This document shows positions 46,346-64,000 of a stretch of DNA of 64,000 nucleotides, piece after piece. Source of the DNA: Pratylenchus scribneri (taxonomy: Eukaryota; Nematoda; Chromadorea; Rhabditida; Pratylenchidae); contig JAQSEB010000004.1 of the NCBI GenBank assembly GCA_030063045.1, positions 806,001 to 870,000 of the forward strand, written 5' to 3'. Position 1 is the stretch's first letter; each line of letters starts with the position of its first letter. The position numbers and the translations under genes were made by a program. The notes beneath the pieces are model-generated. The model was not told the DNA's origin and did not search any database. It saw only the letters and a list, made by a program, of their open reading frames with translations.

Positions 46346-46771
46346 CATTTTTGTGTGAATATCCTAATCCCAATCCCAACAATGATCAGTGAATGGATTC
46401 TGTTGCCAATTTGGGCATTCATTGTTTGTTTGGTTGTGATGTGTTGCCTTACAATTTGTTGTTCCTGCTTTGCACTTTGCTGCTTTGGATGTTTTGTCCG
46501 CAAAAAGGAGCGCAAACCTTCTTGGGACAAAAATTCGGGTAAGAAGCAAATTTTTGGGCAAAATGCTAGGGTTTAGGATTATTCATCCCGAAAAAGGCTA
46601 AATTACGACTACATCGTAACTAATGTCAAATTTTTGCTACTTCGTTATTATGTTTCCTACTGTAGCAGCGACTGCCTATCGGCCATCCTATAGCGAGGGA
46701 AGCTCCGCGGCGGTGGGGAGGGGTCCGCCAGCCGACGGCGACTCTCGCTCTCGACTCGGCGCAGCGCACTG
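46346..46771 (+). CDS. Cys-rich single-pass membrane protein, 3' exons
   Basis: Not recognised. The first visible exon starts after a TTTTAG acceptor (frame CVNILIPIPTMISEW). It continues into a Cys-rich transmembrane segment (LPIWAFIVCLVVMCCLTICC) and a membrane-proximal CSCFALCCFGCFVRKKERK, likely palmitoylated. A GTAAGA donor near 46539 joins in phase to an exon after CTACTGTAG, giving ATAYRPSYSEGSSAAVGRG and a stop TGA. Either M at ISEWILL is the start or extracellular exons lie upstream. The 3' exon is unusually GC-rich for this window. Confidence 0.45.
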
Positions 46772-48404
46772 ATAAGGACGCCCCGAGGGGAGGAGGGGGA
46801 AAGGCGGAAGGAAGGAAGAAGGAAAAGTTCGAAAATGCCCGGGGCCAAGTTTCAATGCCTAAAACTTGTCCCTCTATAACTTTTTACCCACTGGGCCAAT
46901 TTTGCTCATCTATACCTTAATCAAAAGGGCATTCACGTGTGCATCTCGTGTACATAGAAAATTAATTAAATTTAAAATTTTAAAAAGTTCAGAGAGGGAA
47001 GTCAAAAATGGTAAATTAGCTTAAAAAAAAGTAAATTTACTCGATAAATAATTAAAAATGCAATTTGAACTTTACGAAAATTGGTGCAGTAAACAAAAGG
47101 ACGTTCGATTTCCTCCTTCCTTCCCCTTACCCCTCTACCTTCTTCACCCTCTTATCAGCTATTGATTTCCAAAATGGTAAAAATGGACAAAAATGAAGAA
47201 TTGAAAAGTAAAAATGAGGACTGTCAACAAAAAATGAGGGATTGTAAAGTGAAAATAAATTTAAAATGAATAAACAATTTAATTAAATTTAATTCAAGCA
47301 ATAATGTAAAGAAATGATGGATAAATATTAAAAAATATAACTTCGGAATTTACTAAATTTTTTCAATTTTTTTCTTACTCATTTGATTAAAATATATAAA
47401 GAATAAGCATTTCTTCAAATTTCCATAAATTTCATTTCAATTCGTACAAAACATTTCTCTTAACTTAACAAAAACAATCAATCGATAAAAACCGACGCTT
47501 TCCAATTTCATCATAATGTGGTTGGGGGCCGGCGGACCCCTCCCCTGCCCCTTACCTCTACCCCTCTCTTATCGATAACTGTCTCGACCAAATCATTCGT
47601 CATTTTAATACCCCCCTCCCCTCCCACTTGTTCATTGCACTTTTGGGAGCACGCCGCCGTTATTGATAAATTATGGCTGGGAGGAAATGGGGGAAACAAA
47701 AAAATTTGCATTGGACAAAACGGGGATCTTGTAAAAAAAAATTTGACTACTATAATGGGAAAATGGATGGAAAATACTTATTGAAAATGATTGTACGACT
47801 CAATGAGAGTCATTTTACTTATTATTATATTTACAATTCAAATATGGCTAAAGATTAAATTAATCTCAAAAACAATATGTTAAAAAAGTTTGGCATTTTA
47901 CCACATATATGTGGCATTTCCTCCAATTTTTAATCTCCTTTTTTCCCAAATTTATCACCTTTTTCCCCACATTTTGACTTACTTCACATTTTTATTTTCC
48001 ATAAATTTTTCATAGCTATGCCACTTTGCCAGACCATATGATCATAAAATTTTTAAAATTTGCCACATCATTTTGCCATATTTCCCCAACATGACCTTTG
48101 CCAAATTTTTGGCCTGACCTTTATGGTCACAATAAACCTAAAATCCTTTTTTCCCCCCAAATTTTGCCATTTTCCCACATTATGACATTACCCACATTTT
48201 ACACTTTTTTGACTTTTTTTGATTAATTTTTAACTATACTGCCTTTATTGGTCTAATTTTCCCCTAACATAATTTTCCCTGAATGACCATTTTGAGGCAG
48301 TTTTTCCAGTTTATCACTGCTAGACCAATTTTCTAATCCCTGTTAAAAAGTGAAAATTTCGAAAAATAAAAATATTATCTAATAAATTTTATATTAAATA
48401 GAGA
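46772..48404. other. AT-rich gap before the virus-like element
   Basis: Pyrimidine-rich blocks (CCTTACCCCTCTACC) recur near 47120 and 47540. The second is partly inverted relative to GGGGAGGGGTCCGCCAGCC at 46.72 kb. TTTTGCCA/CCACAT steps are frequent from 47.9 to 48.2 kb. The left end of the mobile element probably lies here or just downstream; no terminal repeat could be defined. Confidence 0.4.
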
Positions 48405-48590: not shown

Positions 48591-48656
48591 ATTATTAATT
48601 ATTAATTAATACATTTTTAGATAAATTTACTTCAAATCTACAAAATAATTGAAAAT

Positions 48657-51600
48657 ATGGATGAAAACAATGTTTCAACACCTCAAAATATGCTGGATAT
48701 GGATATGCCTGTTTTGACACCCCAAAATGTGAACATGGATAATGGAAATGATGAAATGGAATTAATAAATAATGGAATTACTTCGACACCCAAAATGCCG
48801 TCGAAGGTAAGGGAATTTTTAATTTTTAATAAGTTTCAGGTAAAATATAATTTATCAATAAATTATAGTCTAATTTCAGGTAAAATATGTTCAAGTGGGC
48901 CATGGGAAAATCAGGCGAAAGCTGGATCGCGCAAGAGCAACGAGACGTCGCCTATTCCCAGCGAATGCACCACTTGACCCTCGAGATTTTAATGGGCCAG
49001 GCTGGGAATGCCTATCAATCGGTGAAGCTAATGCCGGCAGATTCTACAAGGGTGGGATTTTACAATAAAAATAATGAAAATAAAGTTTTATAGCAATCCG
49101 AATCAAAGGCATTTTCCTTCTTCTGAATATTTTGGTTGAACAACTCCAATTTAACTACCCGGAAGAAAGGATTAAAGCAATTTTCGGCAAAATGGTGGAA
49201 TGCCTCAAAAATACTGTTCATCAGAAGGGATTCAAGCCGCAGCATTATATTGTGGGCCTAAATTCGGAATTGATGGAAAGTGCTAAAAATCTCCATGTTC
49301 ATCAAATCGACGAAGACATTGCCGATATCCTCTTAAATTGGTTCATCAAAATCGACCAATCAGGAATGCTCAAACACCACAAGGACTCGCTGACCTTGCA
49401 ATCTTTTGAGATTGATATTTTGGCAATTGAATTGTGGAATGGACCGCAACAACAAAAATTCAATATCGGCAAGAAGAAGCAAAAACGGCACCCAGGAACT
49501 GGAGGCCCCATCAAATTTCGTCACAATATTAATTTGGACGCTATAATGGAAATTGACAACAATGACAACTATTGTCTTTTCCGCAGCTTTGAAATTCTCC
49601 GTCACAGAGCAACAATGAGCCGACAAAATTTTGCAGTATATAAGAAAAATGAAAAACGACAATCAAAGGATGTTCGAAGTCTAATGCTTGAATGTGGAAT
49701 TCCAAGGAACTTGAAAACATATTCGATTGAAGAATGGGGCGAGAAAATATGGGAATATTATCAGAAGAAACATCCAAATCTCTTTCGGCTCTTTGCTTTC
49801 CCGGAAATTGGCGAATTGAAGGTAGATATTTTTCTTTATTATTTGTTTATATTCTTTTAGCCCTTCTGGGCCAGCAAAAATGAACAATATGAGCAAGAGG
49901 AGCTTTGTGTTCTTTTCACAGAGAGGGAAAATGGAGGGCATTATGAACCAATTTTCTATCCTGGCAGACTTCTCGGTGAATCGAAAATTTATGATTTTGG
50001 GGTAAAATTCTTATTTAATTAACTTATTTATTAATATATTATCAGTGTTTGATGCCAATCAAGAATGCTTTTGAGCATGATTGGAATTGCGGCTTCAAAT
50101 GCAGAGAATGTGGCCGAGTAGGCTTAAATTTCAAAAAAAATAAATTATTTCTATTTTAGCTTGGTATTAAACATAGTGGAGGATGCCGCCCTGATGGAAT
50201 GGATCCAATTTGTTGCATTCATTGTCAAAAGACATTCGTTTCAAAAGATTGCTTTGATGAACACAAAAGAACAAAGAACATTCCATCTGGTCTTTCCAAA
50301 AGTGTCTGCGAAAAACATGTTCAATGCCCAACATGTGGCGACAAATATGTTGTTAAACAGCAAGAAAAGGATGGCAATAAGCATATTTGTGGGGAACGTT
50401 ACTGCAGAAGATGCAAAGGTAATTTTTTTAATTAACAAATTTAATAACAATATAGGCTATCATGGACCACGTCCTTGCTTCATCAAGCCATTTGAATATG
50501 AAGAAGGTCCTGAACGGCGATTTGTGATGTATGATGTGGAAACCACAACGGACTTGAAGCCAGAGCCAAATATTGCCCGTTTCAAGCATCAGGTAAATAC
50601 CAATTTAAATAAATTTATCTAATGGATTTAGGTTAATTTCATTTGGGCAATAGTCTTTTGTACAATGTGCCTGAAAGAAAAAATTTGGGACAAGAAATTG
50701 GAAAATGATTGCATCATATGTGGCAAATATCGTTCCTTCTCATGGTGTGTGGGCGATTTTACAAAGTCCGATTTTGATGTCAAATTTGTGACTCCAACGC
50801 CAATCAAGGATTTTGTTCAATGGCTTCTCAAATTTTGGAAAAAGAATCCAGAAAAGAAGAAAGGTAGGTAATCCTATTTGCCTAATACTCATTATTTTCT
50901 TATTAGGACCAAAAAACAATAAAAAATCCAAAACAATGGCTCGAAGAAATGCCAACAAGAAGGATAAATGCCGTCGTCAACCCAATCAATTTATTGATTT
51001 TGAAGCAGAACAAAGTGGAGAAGAAGCCGAATATTCCGACTATGAAGATGAAGAATCCACAATTGACAGGGAATTTATTGACGATGATATTGAAATGGAT
51101 GAAAATGAGGATTTGCCTCCAAATCCCTATTTGAATTCTGGCTTCTTTGAACGAATTGAGCAATCAAATTCTCCATCAATGGACCAACCGTGCTCTTCAA
51201 ACTCGATGACTGACCGGCAAATTCTTGAAAAAGTCTGGGCTCAATCTGAGGCACGAATGAGGGCACAAGGCATTATTCCATGGGATGAGCAGGAGATCAG
51301 AAAAGAAGAAGAAAGAAAAAGGAAATTGGCAGAAGAAGAAGAGAAAAAGAAGAAAAGGCTGGAAAGACGAAATATGAGGGAAATTGTGACCTATGTTTAT
51401 GCACATTATGGACAAAAATATGATCATGTAAGAAATAATTACAAATTAAATATCAATTTTCAGGTTTTTTCAATGTATGAACTTTTCCAAATGGGCTATT
51501 GCCCCAAAGTGATTATGCAAGGAAAACGTTTTTACCAAATTCAAGTCCGACGTCGCGGTGTCGTCACTCCAACAATTTTTCGTGACACGTAAGATACTTG

Positions 51601-54532
51601 GAAATTTAAAAAATATTAAAATTTTTAGGTATCATTTAATCCCAATTAAATTGGAGGCATTTGTGTCAACCTTCAAATTGGAAATTCCAGGAGTAGAAGG
51701 GAAGGAAAATTTCCCCTACAAATTTAATAAGGTAATATTCGTACTGCAATAAAAATAATTGGTTAATTATAGGAAGAGAATTTGAACACAATTCAAGACC
51801 ATCTACCCAGTTTGGAGGACTATTGCATTCGTGGAATGATGCGAAAGAAGGCTGAAAAAGTTCAAGCATGGCATCAGGACAATTATAATACAAAGTAAAG
51901 TTAAAATGATTTTCAATACTAATTGCTTTAGATTTGAATTAAATGAAGCATTGGCGGCCTATTGCAAATCCGATGTGGAAATTCTTGCCCATGGCTTTGT
52001 CAAAATGCGGGAAATATTCATGCAGGCCACAGGGTTGGACAATACCCGCTTCATTACATTTTCCGTAATTAATTTGGATTATTTATACATATTTTGATAA
52101 TAAAATAGGGTGGTGCCATGAAATTTTTCCGCACATTTGTTCCCGAAAATTTATTGGCCTTAACACCTGAAATGGGCTATGAAAAGTGTGATAGATCAAG
52201 TGGATTGGCACGACAATATCTTAAATGGCTGGAATATTCCTTAAAAATTAAAATTCAAAATGCGGACACTTTTGAGGGCGAAAAGAAAATTGGAAAAGTA
52301 TGTTATTTTAAATGGCTTATGATTAAATATAATTAAAAAAGTGGAAATTGGATGGCTACATTGAGAGAGATGAGGAGGATGGTGGGCCCATCGCAATAGA
52401 GATAAATGGATGGTAAGAACGTTTAGAATTTTGCTTAAAATTATATTTAGTTTCTGGCATGCATGCCCTCGTTGCAATAAAGGCATAAGAGAAGAACACT
52501 TTTTGGGCCGCAAAAATGTTGGAGAAATTTGGAAGAAAGATTTGGAAAAACATCAGGAAATTCGGAAAACCATGCATCTTTGGGTCATATGGGAATGCCA
52601 GTGAGTTTTTATTCTATTCATTCCTTATTATTTATTATATTTATTTTAGAATCCGAAGAGAAATGCAGGATAATCCAGAAATGGAGGCATATATGGATAA
52701 CCTTGAAGATATTGGCCCAATAAAATTGCGGTAGATTTTTATTTATTTTTCTGGAAATAGTCTGATTCAGTGATGCATTTGTTGGTGGGCGCACAGGCCC
52801 AGAATGGTTATTTGCAAATGCCCCGGCTGATCAAAGCCGAGAGGCTATTCATATGGCAAATCCTGATCAACCACACACCACTATCAAAGTGAAAGACTTC
52901 AAAAGCCTGTATCCATCCGTGTATGTTTTTCAAATTATCATTTAAATAGAAAAAATCTATATTTAGCAATTTTGAATCGGAATATCCTATTGGGCATCCA
53001 TGGGCAAAAGTCAATGAAGGGGCCGCCGTGTATGTTAATTGGACGAAGCCGGATGACCTCCCATATTATGATCAACTTTTGCAAGTCTATGTTGTGCCTC
53101 CTCGCCATGTGGATATTCCAGTGCTGCCCATTCGATATGTTGGAAGAAAGGAGACCCGATTGCTCTTTAGCCTTTGCAAGTAAGAAAATTGATGATTTTT
53201 CGATAAAAATATAATTTTAAAGGGCATGTGCTCGGGCAAATAAAGAAGGCCTTTATGATCCTGGGTATAATTGCCCACATTTTGAAGATGAAGAAAGGGG
53301 TCATAATGGCACTTACACAAGGCCCGAATTGGAAAAGGCCTTGGAAGCTGGGTAAATATATCCAGTTTTTATTTATAAGTTTCGCATTCAAGATATCGGG
53401 TCACAAAACATTATCGATCATATGTTTGGGATGGGGATATTGACAAGGAATACAGCACAGAATTGTTCAAGCCCTACATTCGGGCAATTATGCGATTGAA
53501 ATACATGGCAGAAGGCTGGCCTTCATCAATCACTTCCCTCCCTGAAGAAGAACAAGACATGGCCAAAATCCGATATGTGATTGAAGCAGCACAAATTTAT
53601 GGCATTGAATTCACGATTGAGTATGTCCAGAACAATCCTGGACTCAAATTCATTGCCAAACTGTAAGTTCAAATAAATTAGCTTGATTATTTATCTCATT
53701 TTTAGCCTTCTCAATTCGCTTTGGGGTCGTTTCGCCTTGCGTAACCGTCTCTCGATGACAGTTTACGCAAGCGACGACCTCACTATTGCCAAATATTTAA
53801 ATGATAAGAAGATAAAAATTGAGCGATTTGAACAAGTGACGGAAAAAATTTGGATGATCGTGTACAAGACCAAAAAAGAGCATGTTCGCGAGCATGGATG
53901 CTCAAACCTCATTTTGGCATTATGGTAAATTAAATTAAAATTTAATTTATATAGATTTTAGGACGACATCCATGGCACGGCTCAAACTTTTGGATGCAAT
54001 GCATAAGGTCATGAAGCGACCAGATGCTCGGATCCTTTATTATGGTAAATAATTAAAATTACTTTGAAGTAATTTGAAATTCTTAGACACCGACTCAATT
54101 TTTTATCAATATGATACGGAATTGGGGGACCCAATTGAGGATGGAAGACATTTGGGGGAATTGACAGGTAAATTCACACGGATAATTTAATTATCAATTT
54201 TATTAGACCAATATCCGGATCATGTTATCACTGAATATATTTGTTTGGCCCCAAAGCTTTATTCCCTCAAAATGGTCAATAAAAAGACTGGGGAAATTGA
54301 ATTTGAAACCAAGGCCAAAGGTCGTCAGATTTTCATTTTTATTCTCTAATTTGGACTTATAGGCTTCACTCTGGACTGTGAAAATGCCGATAAGCTGAAC
54401 CATGAAACCATGAAGGCTCAGCTGATGGAATATCTTCGAGGGGAGCAGGTCAAACCCATCGAATGCAATTACCCGTACAACAATTTTCGGGTCACGAAGA
54501 AATGTGAAATCTTCACTGTTCCAATTGATTAG
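48657..54532 (+). CDS. Family-B DNA polymerase (Maverick/adintovirus type)
   Basis: Forward gene of about 20 exons, ATG 48657, stop TAG 54530-54532. It replicates the element's DNA, probably protein-primed as in relatives. Seen in order: an Asn/Asp-rich start; an N-terminal region with DNNDNYCLFRSF and GGHYEPI; Cys/His fingers (FKCRECGR, CCIHCQKTF, CPTCGDKYV); exonuclease motif I (MYDVETTTD, about 50.53 kb); an acidic insert with a Glu/Lys coiled coil (51.0-51.4 kb); CFWHACPRCNKG; DAFVGGRTGPEW; polymerase motif A (DFKSLYPSV, 52.9 kb), motif B (LLNSLWGRFALRNRL, 53.7 kb) and motif C (YYDTDSIFY, 54.1 kb). All catalytic Asp residues are present. The introns are short and host-like; no frame break was found. 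The promoter lies at 48.4-48.6 kb. Confidence 0.92.
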
Positions 54533-55414
54533 AGTCATAATAGGCAGGATGACTGAGGTTGGGAAAAATCGGCTATCATAATTAATCAAAACTTGGGGCT
54601 TTACTGATTCTTTGAGAGGGAATAAATAAAATGGAACTTGTTTAGAGGGGGAATCAATAACTTTGAAAAATTTAGTCTCATTATGATTACAAATAGGCAT
54701 GAAATATAGAGATTTATCAGTTAACATATAAAGGATATGGCGATCAATTACAGTCCAAGAAAGAGGATTTGAGATTTTCCATGAACACAATTTGACATAT
54801 CCAAAGGGGATGCTTGATTGAATTGGGTAAAAACGAAAATCACGATTCCAAAGGCCATCAATAAATTTTGGCGAAATTTGAAAAAAATCATCACCAATTC
54901 GGGCAACCAGCCATTCAGTCAAATGATCAAAACCCAATTGGTCATAAGGGAATTCTCGAACCAGTTTCACGTTTTGACCCCTTTGGATTGTCGTCATATT
55001 CAACAGCTTATGTCGGCTGAGCACAAATGTGTATCCATTGAAGTGGAAGCAACTTTGTGGTTCAAAGTAGTGAGCATGACGCTAAACTTATAAAAATAAT
55101 CAAAATACAATAGCTGAACATGCCTGATCCATTCCAAAATCCATTTTCACTGGACTTGTCTGAACCAAAGTGAAGATGTTTAAAAGATGAAAACGAAAAA
55201 AGCCATCGTCCCCTCGAACAATTGTGCAAATTTGATCCCGGGAATGGGCAAAATTGTAGACTCGATTTGGCACATTCGGCATTTCGGGATTAACCAATTG
55301 CAACTCAGTGCCGTTCAATCGGATTTTCCAGAGCCTTTCAGAGACAATCCTCACGGACTTTGCCGAAGGCAATGGGAAAAAGATGAAAAAAGGAAATAAA
55401 AATGAAAAATTCAT
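54203..55414 (-). CDS. Secreted or membrane-targeted protein of unknown function in the element
   Basis: Not recognised. Exon 1 (55134-55414) begins with a signal peptide (NFSFLFPFFIFFPLPSAKS), then RLWKIRLNGTELQLV and YNFAHSRDQICTIVRGDDG. Exon 2 starts at 55081 and carries CFHFNGYTFVLSRHKLLN, EWLVARIGDDFFQISPKF and WTVIDRHILYMLTDKSLYFM. The intron 55082-55133 has a GC donor (CAG-GCATGT), the only choice that keeps frame. The ATG overlaps the protease stop by four bases (ATGA). The frame stays open to 54203, antisense to the last polymerase exons and introns; the true end may be nearer 54540 by an unseen splice. A structural or surface role is possible but not shown. No C-terminal membrane anchor is evident. 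Confidence 0.55.
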
Positions 55415-55915
55415 TTATTTATCTGAAAATTTACAAAATTACGGACAAATTGATCGGGTTCATTACAACGTTTCAGCATTGAAATAATGCTAGTAAAATC
55501 AAAACCAAGGGACATAAAATAGATAAAATAAACACAATAGTGACCACAGACATCGGAAAATATCGATTGTAATTTCGCCCCACTTCTATACACTTTACGA
55601 AATTTTCTCAGTGTCTGCCCAATCAATTCGGTGGGCCGCTCGCCAAATGAATCAAAGTAATTGCATTCCTCTGGACTTTGGACCCAAAGAGCAACCCAAT
55701 GTGTGCCTGGACCAAAGGACGAGTCCTAAAAAAGGACGCTAATTTCGTAATAACCAATTAATAATTGGCAACTTGCCAAATTTATGACCATAGAGCAAGG
55801 GAATTGCTTGCACACGGGGACCTTATCAGCGGGAAAGCATCCTTTGTAATATCGGTTGGTCACCGTGTTCCTCTTCAGGAGATAATCGATTTTGTTTGTG
55901 TCCATTTTTCAATTT
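55411..55915 (-). CDS. Adenain-like cysteine protease (capsid maturation)
   Basis: Two exons, 55777-55915 and 55411-55725. The start MDTNKIDYLLKRN is followed by RYYKGCFPADKVP (the adenain N-terminal pattern), then THWVALWV with the catalytic His, NYFDSFGERP with the acidic residue, and SIFSDVCGHYCVYFIYF with the catalytic Cys after an oxyanion-side Gln (LQS). This is the C5/Ulp1-type fold used by adenoviruses and Mavericks to cleave capsid precursors. The 51-nt intron has a GC donor (TTG-GCAAGT); only this donor restores INLDSSFGPGTHW. All catalytic residues are intact. Its start overlaps the small membrane-protein gene by 90 bp and its stop overlaps the next ATG by four. Confidence 0.92.
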
Positions 55916-56095: not shown

Positions 56096-57724
56096 TTAAA
56101 GTGACAAATCACTGGTGATTGTTCGGTTTCTATCCACCATAATGAGCCCATCGGACTCCGCATAGGCAATCATTTGGATACCATTTGCTGGGACAGCGGA
56201 TCCAAATCTTTGGCATTTTGTTAATTATTTATTTTGGCGTAAATTCAAACCTTATGTTGACACTTGTTGTCCCATCTTTCACTAATTCAAAGCCTGGGGA
56301 ATCCTCTTGGCCATTCGTCAACATAAAAACAAAGAAACAAAATCCGTTCGGATATTTTGCATAGTTTATTCCATTTGATTCAGTTGTGTTTGCAAATCCC
56401 AAATATTCTTGAAAATCATGATAGGCACGAATATAGTTTTTGGCCCCGAAGTTGAGGTTATATGGCTGCTGAGGGTAAATCCTTCCATTGGCTATTAATT
56501 CAATGTCTCTAATGTTGAAATGCTCAAAGTAGAATGGAGTGTTGTTCTTTGATTTATCTCCGACAAAATAGTCATTCTTCACAAATCCAATGATCACCCT
56601 TCTTGGGACTTCGGCCTCGAATAAGACTGTGCTAAAATCTGTTCGGCCTTGACTTATAAAAACATGTTTGATGTCGGTCTTCCTAATTGAATAACGTGCG
56701 GGCTCTATATCTAATTTTTTGGCAATTTCAAGTGAAAGTCCATCCATCAAGTCAACTATAATAAATTTTTGCATTTTCATTGGTTTTTTTTTTGAAACCT
56801 GTCTTAACAAGTAGACTTATATTTTCAATAATGAGAGTGAACTTTCTTTCGGGCCCTACTGGAGCAGGTGGTGCTTGTTGACCATCAACAGCCTGGGGTG
56901 CCTCGACCGCTGCATTCACTTTCTCATACATCAAAATGAATTCATCCGGCTGAGGAGTTATCTCAATCTCCAATTCAGTACCGGTGATTAAGAATAGGTC
57001 CTAGGTAAGTAATAACTCGAATTTTAGAAATTATTAACCTGATTAAAAATATCACAATCTAGTTTATGGATCAGTTGAACAACTTTACTACTAGAGAACA
57101 TATTTTTTCGCTCAATATATCCCGGATCGGCATAGCTTTTGGGATTAGTTTCGATGCCATATCCAGAGGCTGATAAATAGGATTCTTTTACGGCTTTCGG
57201 ATAAGATAATTCCGTGTCCAAATAAGCTTTAAAACTATATAGTTGATTGGAATTGTAAATCTCCCGTTGATTGATCAAGACTCTCAAACTTAAAAGTAGA
57301 AACAAAAGATAAATAAATAAGATAACTTTTTGTTGACTTTTTGATGAAAGTTCCTCCGGGCATTTGGATTGGAGCCACAACATCATTGTGAATATCCACC
57401 AGCGAACCATCCGGTTCGACTTCACGAATTTTCATTTCAGTCAAAACATAAATTTTGGAAAGGCCAATAAAGGAGGTCAAGGGAAAAATTTTAAAGAGGA
57501 AGGGCTTTGTACTAAAAAATTAAAATTGCAATTAAACAAAATTCAAACAAACTTTATTGGATTTAGGGTACTGTAGATTCTCCACATTGAGTTGCTTACG
57601 GCACAATTGGTGGGTGGGGTGGAGAATAAATCTTAACAGAAATTAGAGAAAAAGATTGATAAAATATACCCAAAGCAGCCGTAACACTATTGCTCGATGA
57701 GGCATCAATTTTTTTATAGAGCAT
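56096..57724 (-). CDS. Major capsid protein, double jelly-roll
   Basis: Seven exons: 57669-57724, 57553-57631, 57338-57511, 57039-57288, 56799-57000, 56251-56755 and 56096-56207. The start is MLYKKIDASSSNSV, then DLFSTPPTNCAV and IGLSKIYVLTEMKI, followed by LRVLINQREIYNSNQLYSFK and YLDTELSYP (first jelly roll). The second half has EIEITPQPDEFILMYEKV, SIRKTDIKHVFISQG, VPRRVIIGFVKNDYFVGD, PFYFEHFNIRDIELIANGR and, at the end, IQMIAYAESDGLIMVDRNR. These match Maverick/adintovirus hexon-like capsids. All introns are 37-60 nt GT-AG type; without the last splice the frame would end early at 56229. No disruption was seen. Confidence 0.9.
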
Positions 57725-57748: not shown

Positions 57749-58279
57749 TTAATAATATCCAAGACTGTCCACACGTCTTTTCTTAACTAATGCTCTTCCG
57801 GGAACTGACTGGGGTTTTAAAATGATTGTGGCCAGGTTGCGGCCTTTCCTTTTCGTTAAGGCAGTGGATCTCCTTTTTCGGCCACGCCCACTTCCTTTTT
57901 GTTTTAGCTTAGTCTGGGCCTTTGCCAATAAATTTTGTGCACTTTGGTTGGCATTACTACTAATAGAGGATTTTATGTCTTCGCCACGTGACACATCCTC
58001 TAGAGTCTTTGCTGCGGCCTTTAGACCTTCTTGACCGATTTCCTTCATCGCTCCAGCGGCGATTGGGGCAACAGCACTCCCCAATGGTTTCAAATATCTC
58101 CAAATGTGTCTCAAAACTGAACCGACCCCGGCACCCCGTTGTCTGGCGAAAGTAGAAAAATGGCCATGACCTCTTTGAAAATTTTGAAGGGCCTCAAAAT
58201 AATTTATTGGTCCGCTTCCTGTTTGGGGATTATTAATTGTAGCGAGGGATAAAGTACTCCCGTCAAATATCACATGCAT
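57749..58279 (-). CDS. pVI/pX-like basic virion protein
   Basis: The 176-residue intronless frame begins MHVIFDGSTLSLATINNP. A Gly/Arg-rich stretch (FARQRGAGVGSVLRHIWRYL) leads into an Ala-rich helix (PLGSAVAPIAAGAMKEIGQE, then GLKAAAKTLEDVSRGEDIKS) and a strongly basic tail (GSGRGRKRRSTALTKRKGRN). Maverick and adintovirus genomes carry such a protein next to the capsid genes, compared with adenovirus pVI/pX. It may bind DNA or disrupt membranes during entry; that role is inferred from the family. It ends 24 bp before the capsid start. Confidence 0.75.
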   Translation of the reverse strand: MHVIFDGSTLSLATINNPQTGSGPINYFEALQNFQRGHGHFSTFARQRGAGVGSVLRHIWRYLKPLGSAVAPIAAGAMKEIGQEGLKAAAKTLEDVSRGEDIKSSISSNANQSAQNLLAKAQTKLKQKGSGRGRKRRSTALTKRKGRNLATIILKPQSVPGRALVKKRRVDSLGYY

Positions 58280-58307: not shown

Positions 58308-59579
58308 TCAAAAATAAATTTGTTTCTTGAATAATAGGGTAAGAATAACAGTGCCATAATCAAAATGAACAAATCGTCCGTCCATAGAACGGATTTCAAC
58401 ATCAATTGAATCAATTTCACGAGAAATTACTTTATGCATTAATGGGTGTTGGAATTCTTTTTGAACAACATCTCCGCTCTTTCCTTCAATTCCCACAATC
58501 TGGAGTAAATTTGTGAATTTGTTCCCGAACATAATGTCCTCAACCAGTCCACTGTTTAAATAGACACAAAGATGAGAGACGGTCCCTCGTAAATCAGGTG
58601 GATATTTTGCCACATCCCCATTTTTCAGCTGCAATCCCTCCTCGAAGCCCAGAACATAGGAAATTTGATTAGTCAACTCAATTTTTAATATGTTTGAATC
58701 AGTCAATTTAATTTCGAATCGTCCAATTGTCTCATCGTATTCTATTTTTATGGCCTTTGCATATTTCATGAGCTCCATGGCTGTTTGTTTATTCAATGGA
58801 GTGCCCAAACGTTCTTCAACAAGTCGATATAAATTTCTGAATTCATCAGAATGTGCTATAATATGGGCTTGAAGATTTGGACTATCCCTTTTGACTTGTG
58901 TTCTATATTTGATCAAATAATGTTGAAGCGCCTGAGCATAGACCCATTCATTGCGATCCCGTAACCAAGTGATATCTCGCCCCAATAATCTAAGTTTGTA
59001 TTCGGATCGGGCCGTGGGCTCGTGTTGCTGTTGTTGTTGCTCTTGTTGTCCAGAAATATGTTGAGTAGTTGTTGTTTCTGTTCTTTGGATTTGTCCTGTT
59101 GAGCCTTTTGCTGTTCCGCCAATTCCTGCAGGATAGAGTGGTGGTTCCCCATCGGCCCCTGGTTCAGCTGCTCTTTTGGCCCTTACTTCCTCATTGTCAT
59201 CGTCCTGATCTTTGTCAAATGATCTTTTAAAACGTTTCACGGAGTCTTCAGGCTTTCCAATAAAATCGATTTCCTGTTCAAGTTCCCTAATTGTTCCAAA
59301 ATGGATGCCCTTTTCCAATTCTTTAGCAGTGTGATAATTGCCCTTTGGGATTTTAAGATGGCGAACATCCCCATTTTTCAAGTATAGAGTGATAAATTCT
59401 GACTCATGACTTCCAAATGTAGCCCAACTATTTGGATAAATTATAGAAGCTAAGCCAATTTGCCATCCATGGCCTTCCAAGTGTATTTTTCTCGGCAATT
59501 GGATTCGAAATTTATTTGATTTGGCGTTTTGCTCAGTACTACCAGTACTTGGCAAAATGATATAAAATGAATTATTCAT
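58308..59579 (-). CDS. Minor capsid (penton-like, single jelly-roll) protein
   Basis: Intronless 423-residue frame. The N-terminus is SFYIILPSTGSTEQN, then FRIQLPRKIHLEGHGWQIGL and IPKGNYHTAKELEKGIHFG, the pattern of Maverick minor capsid proteins. A low-complexity middle (AKRAAEPGADGEPPLYPAG, a Gln-rich run) may be a flexible or cleavable linker. The C-terminus has LRGTVSHLCVYLNSGLVED, LLQIVGIEGKSGDVVQKEF and DGRFVHFDYGTVILTLLFKK, matching the penton-type end. It is the first gene of the reverse-strand capsid cluster, transcribed from the 59.6-60.1 kb gap. Confidence 0.85.
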   Translation of the reverse strand: MNNSFYIILPSTGSTEQNAKSNKFRIQLPRKIHLEGHGWQIGLASIIYPNSWATFGSHESEFITLYLKNGDVRHLKIPKGNYHTAKELEKGIHFGTIRELEQEIDFIGKPEDSVKRFKRSFDKDQDDDNEEVRAKRAAEPGADGEPPLYPAGIGGTAKGSTGQIQRTETTTTQHISGQQEQQQQQHEPTARSEYKLRLLGRDITWLRDRNEWVYAQALQHYLIKYRTQVKRDSPNLQAHIIAHSDEFRNLYRLVEERLGTPLNKQTAMELMKYAKAIKIEYDETIGRFEIKLTDSNILKIELTNQISYVLGFEEGLQLKNGDVAKYPPDLRGTVSHLCVYLNSGLVEDIMFGNKFTNLLQIVGIEGKSGDVVQKEFQHPLMHKVISREIDSIDVEIRSMDGRFVHFDYGTVILTLLFKKQIYF

Positions 59580-61394: not shown

Positions 61395-61730
61395 AAAAAT
61401 TATGAGTCATCTATTGCCTATAAATGACGTCACTCGATAAGAGGGTCCGTAGGCGTGGTTTATTTTTGGCGGGAAAAAGGGCATCGATTTCGCAATAGCC
61501 AAAATAATGTACTTTGTACTTTGGACTTTGTCCAAAGTGATGACTCATCGATTTCGCAATCACCAAAATGATGTCACTGATAAGAGCACAACGTACTTTG
61601 GACCTTACCCAAAAAGGATGACTCATCGATTTCGAAATCACCAAAATGATGTCACTGATAAGAGCGGGTATTTCAACGAAATACTTTGGACCGGTGATGA
61701 CTCATCGATTTCGTAATAACCAGGCAGAGG
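61395..61730. promoter_or_regulatory. Repeated AP-1-like/CRE-like promoter cluster
   Basis: This lies between the reverse zinc-ribbon gene and the forward PAZ gene. GATGACTCATCGATTTCG occurs three times (near 61538, 61618 and 61696), each followed by CAAT, AAAT or TAAT and CACC/AACC; a fourth, shorter copy (ATCGATTTCGCAATAGCC) is near 61484. AAAATGATGTCACTGATAAG follows twice, an inverted ATGAGTCAT is at about 61402, and a consensus CRE TGACGTCA is at about 61424. TGACTCA and TGACGTCA are bZIP sites (AP-1/CREB/ATF class), and GATAAG is a GATA site. Spacing between copies is near 80 bp. Confidence 0.65.
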
Positions 61731-61817: not shown

Positions 61818-62410
61818 ATGAATTCCTGCGGAATACATGGCATTCCCTTGCTCAAATATATTGCCCAATTTTTGGGATGCGAGGAAAGTGCAATACAAGA
61901 AAAGTTGAATCACCCCATGATTTTCGATCGGGTCAATAGATATTTGGGTGGAAAAAAAGTTAGGACAACATATCTGGATCGAAAAGGCGAGCACCATGAA
62001 TTCAATTTTGTGCGACTTTCATTCAAGACCAATTTGGAGCAATATGCTTATGAGGGTTATTTGGGTGTAAACCTTGTCCAGCATTTTTACTGCAAATATA
62101 GGTAAGTTACTCCCATTAAGAAAAAATTGGCTATATTATCCCTTAGAATCCGTTTACAATACCATCGAATGCGCTGCGGCATTGAAATTACCAAATCCGG
62201 GCACAGCAAATACTATCCCCTTGGTTGTACCCATTCCATTTACTAATTCAATCATCTAAAAATTTAGAACTTTTGGAAATACTCCACGAGGGCGAAAAAG
62301 AAAATTGTTCCGACTGTGGACCTGATTCCCCTAGTCCAAATAAATTCAATTGTAATTGCAAAGAATCTGATTATTTTGTGAATTGGTGCAACGGCCTACA
62401 AGCTTGGTAA
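61818..62410 (+). CDS. Stand-alone Argonaute-type PAZ domain protein
   Basis: Exons are 61818-62101, 62147-62223 and 62268-62410 (167 residues). The frame begins MNSCGIHGIPLLKYIAQFLG, then VNRYLGGKKVRTTYLDRKG, EHHEFNFVRLSFKTNLEQYA, YEGYLGVNLVQHFYCKYRIR, LQYHRMRCGIEITKSG and HSKYYPLELLEI. This is the Argonaute PAZ layout: GxxVRTTY strand, basic-aromatic middle, QxFxxKYxIxLxY, and a closing YxPLExxxI. PAZ binds the 3' end of small RNAs. No N, MID or PIWI domain follows; a Cys-rich tail of about 40 residues (ENCSDCGP, FNCNCKES) ends the protein, and a new gene starts two bases later. The final splices are needed to join YYPL to ELLEI. In an Argonaute-rich host such as a nematode, it could sequester small RNAs; that is inference. 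Confidence 0.85.
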
Positions 62411-62411
62411 A

Positions 62412-62828
62412 ATGGCTAAAGAAACAACAACAAAGGCAAATGGCAAAAATGGAAACGGAAATGGTGATCAAATGAACATGCTTGGGATGGCTGGGCCAGA
62501 ATTTCCCGATATTGATTTTGGCCTCTCAACCAATGGCATCACAGTGGCCTGCCCCAAATTATTCAAAACAACAAAATTTTTGCCGTGGGATATTCGTGGA
62601 CCTTTTGCTCATAATGAAGTGGTGGAATGCAACTATGTCATTGAGGCCGATGGATTGATTATCTTTTCCAATCGCTTCAAAAAGGGCAAACACATTAAAT
62701 TCGATGCTCCACTTCTGTTGCGAAAACATGGCAATTTTCGAATGTGCGGGAAAATGCTTCGTCGACCGGAAATGAATGATGCAGCCACCCAAACGGAAAT
62801 CATTATGAACAAAGAACAAAAACCATGA
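62412..62828 (+). CDS. Hypothetical protein of the element, co-transcribed with PAZ
   Basis: Not recognised. The 138-residue intronless frame starts MAKETTTKANGKNGNGNGDQ (disordered), then a folded part with FGLSTNGITVACPKLFKTTK, EVVECNYVIEADGLIIFSNR and HIKFDAPLLLRKHGNFRMCG. Its ATG follows the PAZ stop after one base (TAA-A-ATG), typical of coupled viral genes. Beta-rich content is suggested by the alternating pattern. A link to the PAZ function is possible from position only. Confidence 0.65.
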   Translation: MAKETTTKANGKNGNGNGDQMNMLGMAGPEFPDIDFGLSTNGITVACPKLFKTTKFLPWDIRGPFAHNEVVECNYVIEADGLIIFSNRFKKGKHIKFDAPLLLRKHGNFRMCGKMLRRPEMNDAATQTEIIMNKEQKP

Positions 62829-62922: not shown

Positions 62923-63617
62923 ATGGAAGCCGAAAATGTTGAAACCAATGATTTAAAATTCCCAATCCCCTCAAATATTATTGTCTCGGGCCCGTCAAAT
63001 TCTGGCAAAACCCAATTGGTTTTACGAATCCTTAAGAATGCCAATGAAATGTTCATTCCTCCACCCAAGGCGATTGGTTAGTGGTTAATGTAAAAATGAT
63101 TTATTTCGCACTTTAAGTATGGGCCTATGGCGAATATTCAAGTGTGATTACAGATTTGGAGAAGAGTGGGGTATATGTCCATTCGGGTGTTCCAAGTGAT
63201 GAATGGTTAAGTAAAATTGAGAGACCATTTATCTACGTTTTGGACGATTTAATATGCGATATTGAACAGCGAAAATTGGAGTCCATATTTGTGCGGAATT
63301 CTCATCATCAGCAATTTTGCACGATATTCCTAACCCAGTCACTATTTGACAAGAAGATGCGAATACCTCGAACTAATGCCCATTTTATTTTCTTGTTGAG
63401 ACAGCCCAATGATATGCTTTCAGTTAGGAATTTATCCACACAATTATTCCCAAGGGAAGGAGCATATTTTATTGATGCTTATAAAAAGGCTACCGAGAAG
63501 CCTTATAGTTATTTATTGATTGATTTATTTCCCAATCGCGTGAACCGAAATTTACGATTAAGAAGTCACATTTTCCCAGACGAATATCAAGAAGTGTATT
63601 TACCAAGGAATGGCTAG
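62923..63617 (+). CDS. Genome-packaging ATPase (FtsK/HerA, A32-like)
   Basis: Exons 62923-63076 and 63118-63617 with a 41-nt GT-AG intron. Walker A is IIVSGPSNSGKTQLVLR (about 62980-63030), Walker B is FIYVLDDLICDI (about 63228-63263), and the sensor-like CTIFLTQSLF follows. The spacing and a size of about 217 residues fit the compact packaging ATPases of Mavericks and adintoviruses, which pump DNA into capsids. Both catalytic motifs are intact. The stop overlaps the next ATG by eight bases (ATGGCTAG). Confidence 0.9.
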
Positions 63618-64000
63618 ATCCAGATATAATGGACAGCCTATTGGCCCCCTTATTTTAAAGCATTATCCCTTTCTAAATTCCATTTGTAAATCACGTTCCG
63701 ATAAGAAAAGAAATAAATTGTTGAAAGAGGCAAATCGTGAACAACTTTTATCTTTGGTCGAAGTCTGCCATAATATTTTATCATCAAATTTTAAATTGTC
63801 TGAAAAGCAGAAAAGGAAACTTCTTCCTTTTGCCGATACTGTAAGAAAGTTGGCCAGAGCCCGTTCGGAGAAGAGAGCCAAACAAATCATTTTTGAACAA
63901 CAGACAGGAGAGGGAGGACCGGCAATTTTTGCATCTTTATTAGCACCAGTTTTATTTGAAGCAGCACAGCATTTAATTTCCAGATTTGTCAATAAGAGGA
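63610..64000 (+). CDS. Conserved basic element protein, 5' part
   Basis: The frame starts at ATG 63610, inside the ATPase stop region, and runs off the window without a stop (130 codons seen). It carries MARSRYNGQPIGPLILKHYP, a Lys/Arg-rich helix, LLPFADTVRKLARARSEKRA, and GGPAIFASLLAPVLFEAAQH. The pattern LxPF-LRxLAR-RS followed by a Gly-rich hydrophobic end resembles a small conserved protein of Maverick and adintovirus relatives whose role is not settled. A virion or DNA-associated role is plausible because of its charge. Confidence 0.6.
   Translation, partial: MARSRYNGQPIGPLILKHYPFLNSICKSRSDKKRNKLLKEANREQLLSLVEVCHNILSSNFKLSEKQKRKLLPFADTVRKLARARSEKRAKQIIFEQQTGEGGPAIFASLLAPVLFEAAQHLISRFVNKR

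Follow-up and report, generated by a model that had tools for sequence, protein, structure and literature searches.

In Argonautes of the AGO1/AGO2 type, PAZ (Pfam PF02170) is the domain of a host silencing protein that holds the 3' ends of small RNAs. Here we describe a PAZ gene in a stretch of 64,000 nucleotides of the nematode Pratylenchus scribneri (assembly GCA_030063045.1, contig JAQSEB010000004.1, positions 806,001 to 870,000 of the forward strand; hereafter the window, with its contig called C4). Unlike the Argonaute domain, this PAZ is free-standing, has no PIWI nearby and is encoded by a Maverick element; its family further differs by an exchange of Tyr and His in the pocket and by an added disordered tail. 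Host PAZs of the worm type in the same genome (WAGO-like, our label) have in common with it a TTH/TTY strand start, a GLT..A motif, His or Tyr at the equivalent of position 309 and Phe at that of position 277 (pocket residues are those of AGO1 structures and are numbered as in human AGO1), whereas the sampled host-side rows are set apart from the element PAZs in our tree.

Mavericks, or Polintons (adintovirus-like), share with the window element the terminal inverted repeats (TIRs), a 6-bp target-site duplication (TSD) and an integrase with a chromodomain; the window element also has weak polymerase, protease and capsid matches and an ATPase recognised by its Walker A motif, and the difference here is how often an Argonaute-type PAZ gene is present. 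Envelope-bearing BEL/Pao elements resemble a second class of PAZ carriers, in whose long frames pieces with Pao peptidase, reverse transcriptase (RT), integrase and phlebovirus G2-like envelope domains were found; they differ in that most of the carriers have a PAZ after the envelope domain. Viral suppressors of RNA silencing act on small RNAs or on Argonaute, and the element PAZ would do likewise; no member of that class is known to us to be an Argonaute PAZ. Literature titles and abstract openings, a coverage outside which most subscription-journal papers lie, mentioned no PAZ gene carried by a Maverick or by a BEL/Pao element.

A free-standing PAZ gene inside a Maverick

The initial annotation of the window had described an intact three-exon gene for a PAZ domain with a short Cys-rich tail, lacking MID and PIWI and lying in a virus-like gene cluster. 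The spliced product of window 61818-62410 is 167 residues long, both introns are GT/AG, and both splice junctions are spanned by the alignment with intronless relatives. In all 10 window-type loci that were fetched, the three exons are open at 82-99% identity, and the Cys pairs are retained together with the terminal Trp. PAZ is the sole Pfam match of the window protein (E 4.9e-5, residues 34-128), with 23.7 bits against a cut-off of 28.8, and a search of the PDB with the single window sequence gave nothing significant (best, human AGO1 PAZ with E 0.33). All 14 rows of the family alignment A1 matched PAZ at E <= 0.01 (best 2.2e-10), and the A1 profile matched the human AGO1 PAZ with E 1.8e-10 over profile positions 3-129. 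The identity of the window gene as a PAZ is firm because the family matches PAZ, while the score of the window protein alone is a hint.

The PAZ fold was found for the database relatives P0003 and P0041, which were folded in place of the spliced window protein, and three structure-comparison listings of 50 rows each held, among the matches listed, Argonaute or PIWI-protein structures throughout. The close relatives of the window protein thus have an Argonaute-type fold, which supports the initial annotation. Genome-wide, 123 of 138 PF02170 matches exceeded the cut-off (counted by eye, host Argonautes included), and the last protein search, with alignment A4, added three proteins (P0046-P0048). 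In a scan of IMG/VR with A1, 12 stretches fitted a pattern and none of them encodes a relative; phage records gave none with P0003, and predicted viral proteins gave no match at E <= 0.001. The Heterodera trifolii relative P0037 of the Maverick PAZ carries the source name 'Effector protein'.

No Piwi match was found near the window gene; among the 105 matches listed, those on the same contig are about 2 Mb distant, and PIWI thus does not adjoin PAZ as it does in an Argonaute. A truncated Argonaute with exons running on into PIWI is ruled out by the positions of the Piwi matches, at the window gene as well as at the ATPase-linked loci described below. The window gene encodes a free Argonaute-type PAZ followed by a short Cys/Trp tail, and no other part of Argonaute.

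The PAZ gene lies well inside a TIR-bounded Maverick, and the virus-like setting proposed for it is borne out. The element extends over 21,267 bp (C4:852605-873871), starting at window position 46605 and running past position 64000. Two marks of a Maverick/Polinton were found, namely TIRs with a TSD (6 bp here, 5-6 bp in such elements) and a retroviral-type integrase. On contig C33 there is an empty site in which both flanks are joined without the element, at 77% identity over 436 columns. A host gene merely adjoining an element is ruled out, because the TIRs, the TSD and the empty site enclose the PAZ gene. Elements on contigs C79, C41, C72, C97 and C260 have the same TIR as the window element, and no match to its left flank was reported at five sibling contigs among the best 40 of 712 candidates; a shared TIR without a shared left flank points to separate insertions.

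The PAZ genes of Mavericks are kept by purifying selection. Compared with its sister group, the window copy shows 16-18 synonymous and 7 non-synonymous changes over 87 codons of exon 1, giving a ratio of non-synonymous to synonymous rates (dN/dS) of 0.09-0.11 with Fisher p of 8e-7 and 5e-8 (9 of the 10 loci, L014 having been removed by the motif filter). Among 12 pairs of single-exon siblings, the dN/dS of the PAZ core was 0.15-0.27, and in the 10 pairs with a value for the tail, that of the tail was above the core in 8 and below it in 2. A chance open reading frame (ORF) or decayed fragment is ruled out by this selection and the open frames. It is likewise scarcely credible that the gene is a functionless Argonaute fragment trapped in the element: although the window copy scores below the Pfam cut-off and the two TIRs are just 83% identical, the gene is open in every window-type locus fetched, its dN/dS of about 0.1 contradicts such a reading, and 117 PAZ loci stand at clustered distances from an ATPase gene.

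Recurrence in Mavericks and in BEL/Pao-type elements

Most of the Mavericks examined in this nematode have a PAZ gene of the same family nearby, which is thus recurrent rather than an isolated oddity. In a first count, 116 of 200 merged PAZ loci lay within 15 kb of a Maverick ATPase, and for 115 of these there was no Piwi within 15 kb among the matches listed, the remaining one being also near a Piwi match. When divergent PAZ loci were added, 124 of 150 ATPases had a PAZ within 16 kb; the other way round, 124 of 254 PAZ-like loci (host Argonautes and weak matches included) were near an ATPase, against a mean of 15 when the ATPases were placed randomly on each contig as far as its highest listed coordinate. 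The polymerase as a second marker gave a PAZ-like locus within 16 kb for 56 of 72 loci. The offsets from the ATPase cluster tightly at about -1, -3, +8, +9-10 and +13-15 kb, with few single values elsewhere. These genome counts are lower bounds, with the best 150 or so candidates scored per search; the loci entered were 132 from the genome search that gave the window-type loci, 87 of 105 for Piwi, 150 of 152 for the ATPase, and 72 polymerase loci from 158 matches, the remainder of which are more pieces of the same loci or unlisted. According to PMC10138993, 41.4% of BUSCOs are duplicated in the P. scribneri assembly, so that the PAZ loci are not all independent insertions. Maverick ATPases that appear to be without a PAZ include those at C25, C33:3005648, C36, C37:711898, C38 and C120, which would form a natural comparison group.

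PAZ is also present in some BEL/Pao-type frames with a phlebovirus-like envelope domain. Fifteen loci in BEL/Pao-type contexts have a PAZ-like stretch, the frames that contain it being 439 to 3,674 residues long; the 12 that were fetched all matched our in-house PAZ profile, one of them weakly. In 12 of the 15, the PAZ stretch lies 1.1-1.5 kb past a phlebovirus G2-type envelope match on the same strand; for 10 of these pairs, the frames given for the two matches are identical in length. Pieces of four loci contained Pao peptidase, RT, integrase, DUF5641 and envelope domains in varying combinations, and Pfam on the Pao region of three loci found Peptidase_A17 in all three (best 3.6e-46), RVT_1 in two and integrase domains in two. 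At C234, the Pao peptidase was found in the stretch 5' of PAZ; DUF5641 stands there about 0.4 kb before PAZ, and no envelope domain was found between them. The PAZ stretches at C21:2485709 and C46:1066791 are 98-99% identical to that of C223. The set comprises L059 (C46:516500-521500), L060 (C223:245500-250500) and 13 others, with PAZ near the end of the frame, and includes at least three PAZ sequence types.

Possible role, 3'-end pocket and origin of the element PAZ

We lean towards the element PAZ protein being an Argonaute decoy, because Mavericks and BEL/Pao elements are alike in being exposed to small-RNA silencing, and because an isolated PAZ, lacking the other parts of Argonaute, fits a decoy. 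The protein would hold the 3' ends of host small RNAs or, alternatively, would compete for small RNAs during Argonaute loading, and the element transcripts would thereby escape small-RNA silencing. GW-type hooks dock on the Trp pockets of Argonautes, and the frequent C-terminal Trp in the disordered tail may dock on those pockets of the host Argonautes. A silencing-suppressor role, as first suggested for the window gene, is plausible and is strengthened by the recurrence in BEL/Pao-type elements. More tentatively, we propose from the sequences that tylenchid virus-like elements may carry a new anti-silencing class, a PAZ-only decoy spread among Maverick lineages and to the envelope-bearing BEL/Pao elements, in which PAZ would cap 3' ends and the Trp tail would dock on Argonautes.

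The genomic settings also bear on whether PAZ serves the element's own cycle, by gripping the 3' ends of the element's nucleic acid or as a virion protein, with silencing not the target. PAZ stands beside a packaging-type ATPase (so named here on the basis of its Walker A motif) in window-type elements and within polyprotein frames in BEL/Pao-type elements, and the PAZ of AGO2 can bind DNA too according to PMC6361761. However, the two classes of carriers replicate in unrelated ways, the distance between PAZ and ATPase varies by cluster (about 1, 3, 8, 9-10 or 13-15 kb), and some Mavericks are apparently without PAZ, and we consider a role in the element's own cycle unlikely. Another use of an Argonaute-type fold would be to recruit host small RNAs or Argonautes in aid of the element, for example to license its expression or direct its localisation, and licensing Argonautes such as CSR-1 exist in nematodes; but nothing specific favours this, neither Pfam on the protein nor the Piwi search found a catalytic or guide-loading domain, and such recruitment seems improbable.

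The putative pocket for the 3' end is remodelled. In the main Maverick group, His269 is replaced by Tyr in 32 of 32 and Tyr314 by His in 31 of 32 sampled rows. In a second Maverick type, all 12 rows retain His269 and carry His at 314. At the equivalents of 269 and 314 the window copy has Tyr; its residue at 309 is His, and it lacks Pro at both 321 and 324. The positions are largely aromatic or His, but exchanged (the F292 column was set aside because of a one-position shift in the alignment next to a conserved Tyr). The initial annotation had read the motif QHFYCKY as partly conserved, so that RNA binding could be altered or lost, but this motif alone does not mark a broken pocket: of 8 sampled worm-type host PAZs, 4 also have His at the first position (309) and all 8 keep the second Tyr. 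The missing Pro that it noted is indeed absent from the window copy, but the Pro at the 321 equivalent is kept in 32 of 32 sampled rows of the main Maverick group.

Of 42 database relatives, 29 have Trp as the last residue of the tail and 30 have a [CL][ST]Q motif among their last 45 residues (the exon-1 fragments P0001, P0002 and P0045 are omitted), and 7 of 19 closed genome ORFs end in Trp (L039, cut at its 3' end, is outside the 19). The 29 of 42 overstates the evidence, because many relatives belong to near-identical Heterodera sets and are not independent. These motifs, together with the remodelled pocket, would suit a PAZ that is a scaffold no longer binding RNA, with the tail (Trp, Cys pairs, CSQ-like motif) working via a host protein. 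On the other hand, tail dN/dS exceeds that of the core in most of the pairs compared above, the pocket residues are mostly swapped among aromatics and His rather than lost, and the tails vary widely, with 12 of the 19 genome ORFs lacking a C-terminal Trp; a scaffold of this kind is rather improbable, if less so than recruitment. Among the tails of L039, L043 and L053, some have repeated CxxCGxxH-type motifs, which could be zinc-binding, and others end in CSQ...W.

Several observations weigh against an Argonaute decoy carried as a PAZ across both classes of element. The window PAZ by itself remains below the Pfam cut-off, as do two of the four BEL/Pao PAZ pieces compared with Pfam, the other two being above it. 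PAZ was not detected at 26 of the 150 ATPases or at 16 of the 72 polymerase loci, and was present in only 12 of 123 envelope loci (counted by eye). The pocket has its Tyr/His exchanges in the main group and additionally lacks the two Pro equivalents in the window copy; the Trp count of the database relatives is inflated by kinship, and few genome ORFs end in Trp. In the tree, no end branch is longer than that of the window row, which joins the other Maverick PAZs with weak support.

That tree, of 89 columns, has a branch with support of 96/99 that separates off 16 rows on the host side, namely 13 host loci, 2 reference AGO1 PAZs and 1 locus whose context is unknown. No close host parent was found among the sampled host-side PAZs. 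The Pao PAZs form one group, and an approximately unbiased (AU) test does not reject host and Pao together (p-AU 0.568). The natural reading is that PAZ was captured from a host Argonaute; since the AU test did not reject the host and Pao grouping, one or several captures would both fit.

If the decoy reading is true, two unrelated kinds of virus-like element carry the small-RNA 3'-end-holding domain of a host silencing protein, and this would be a direct case of elements turning a piece of RNA interference against RNA interference, in animals with expanded worm-specific Argonautes. It might also help to explain the high copy number of such elements in plant-parasitic nematodes. Surveys of nematode genes should keep these free PAZ genes apart from Argonautes.

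Other features of the window element

The features of the element are collected in Table 1. PHROGs gave no match to ten ORFs of the window. Polymerase matches above the cut-off were found in other Maverick lineages of the genome, in frames of up to 1,503 residues, with window-type loci not among the matches listed. For the second-exon piece of the ATPase, at least 152 genome matches were found.

Table 1. Coordinates of features in and around the window element
Feature	Position (window, unless C4 is given)	Strand	Remarks
6-bp TSD, TAAATT	46599..46604; second copy C4:873872-873877, beyond the window		
Left TIR	46605..47313	+	Inverted partner C4:873174-873883; match of window 46593-47313, 749 columns, 83% identical
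Family-B DNA polymerase region, in pieces	48621..54532	+	DNA_pol_B_2, E 0.0088 and 0.001 in two pieces; weak, below cut-off
Adenain/Ulp1-like cysteine protease piece	55411..55725	-	Peptidase_C48 E 0.015, Peptidase_C5 E 0.021; both below cut-off
Double-jelly-roll capsid-like region, in pieces	56229..57519	-	DJR-like_dom E 0.0035 (56229-56810), below cut-off; other pieces by position only
176-residue ORF	57749..58279	-	No Pfam/PHROG match; presumably minor-capsid-like, by resemblance
423-residue ORF	58308..59579	-	No Pfam/PHROG match; presumably penton-like, by resemblance
Upstream repeats, unit 78 bp	61516..61713	+	3 exact copies of ATGACTCATCGATTTCG; chance expectation 0.01
PAZ gene exon 1	61818..62101	+	
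PAZ gene exon 2	62147..62223	+	
PAZ gene exon 3	62268..62410	+	PAZ end and Cys/Trp tail with terminal Trp; stop included
138-residue ORF	62412..62828	+	No Pfam/PHROG match
Two-exon ATPase ORF	62923..63617	+	Walker A GPSNSGKT seen in sequence; without relevant Pfam match
ORF leaving the window	63610..64000	+	
Integrase and chromodomain	C4:871163-872098, outside the window		rve E 3.5e-11; Chromo E 1.8e-4, below cut-off

The ORF that follows the PAZ gene starts at 62412, one base past the PAZ stop codon (window 62408-62412), which suggests a single transcript for PAZ and the 138-residue ORF, and perhaps the ATPase too. The intron positions of the PAZ gene appear unlike between window-type, B-type and C-type loci (L020, L031, L012), and the main Maverick PAZ ORFs that were read have the domain without an intron; differing intron positions point to introns gained or lost inside the elements. 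The copies of ATGACTCATCGATTTCG are spaced 78-79 bp apart, shortly 5' of the PAZ start codon, and its TGACTCA core resembles a bZIP site.
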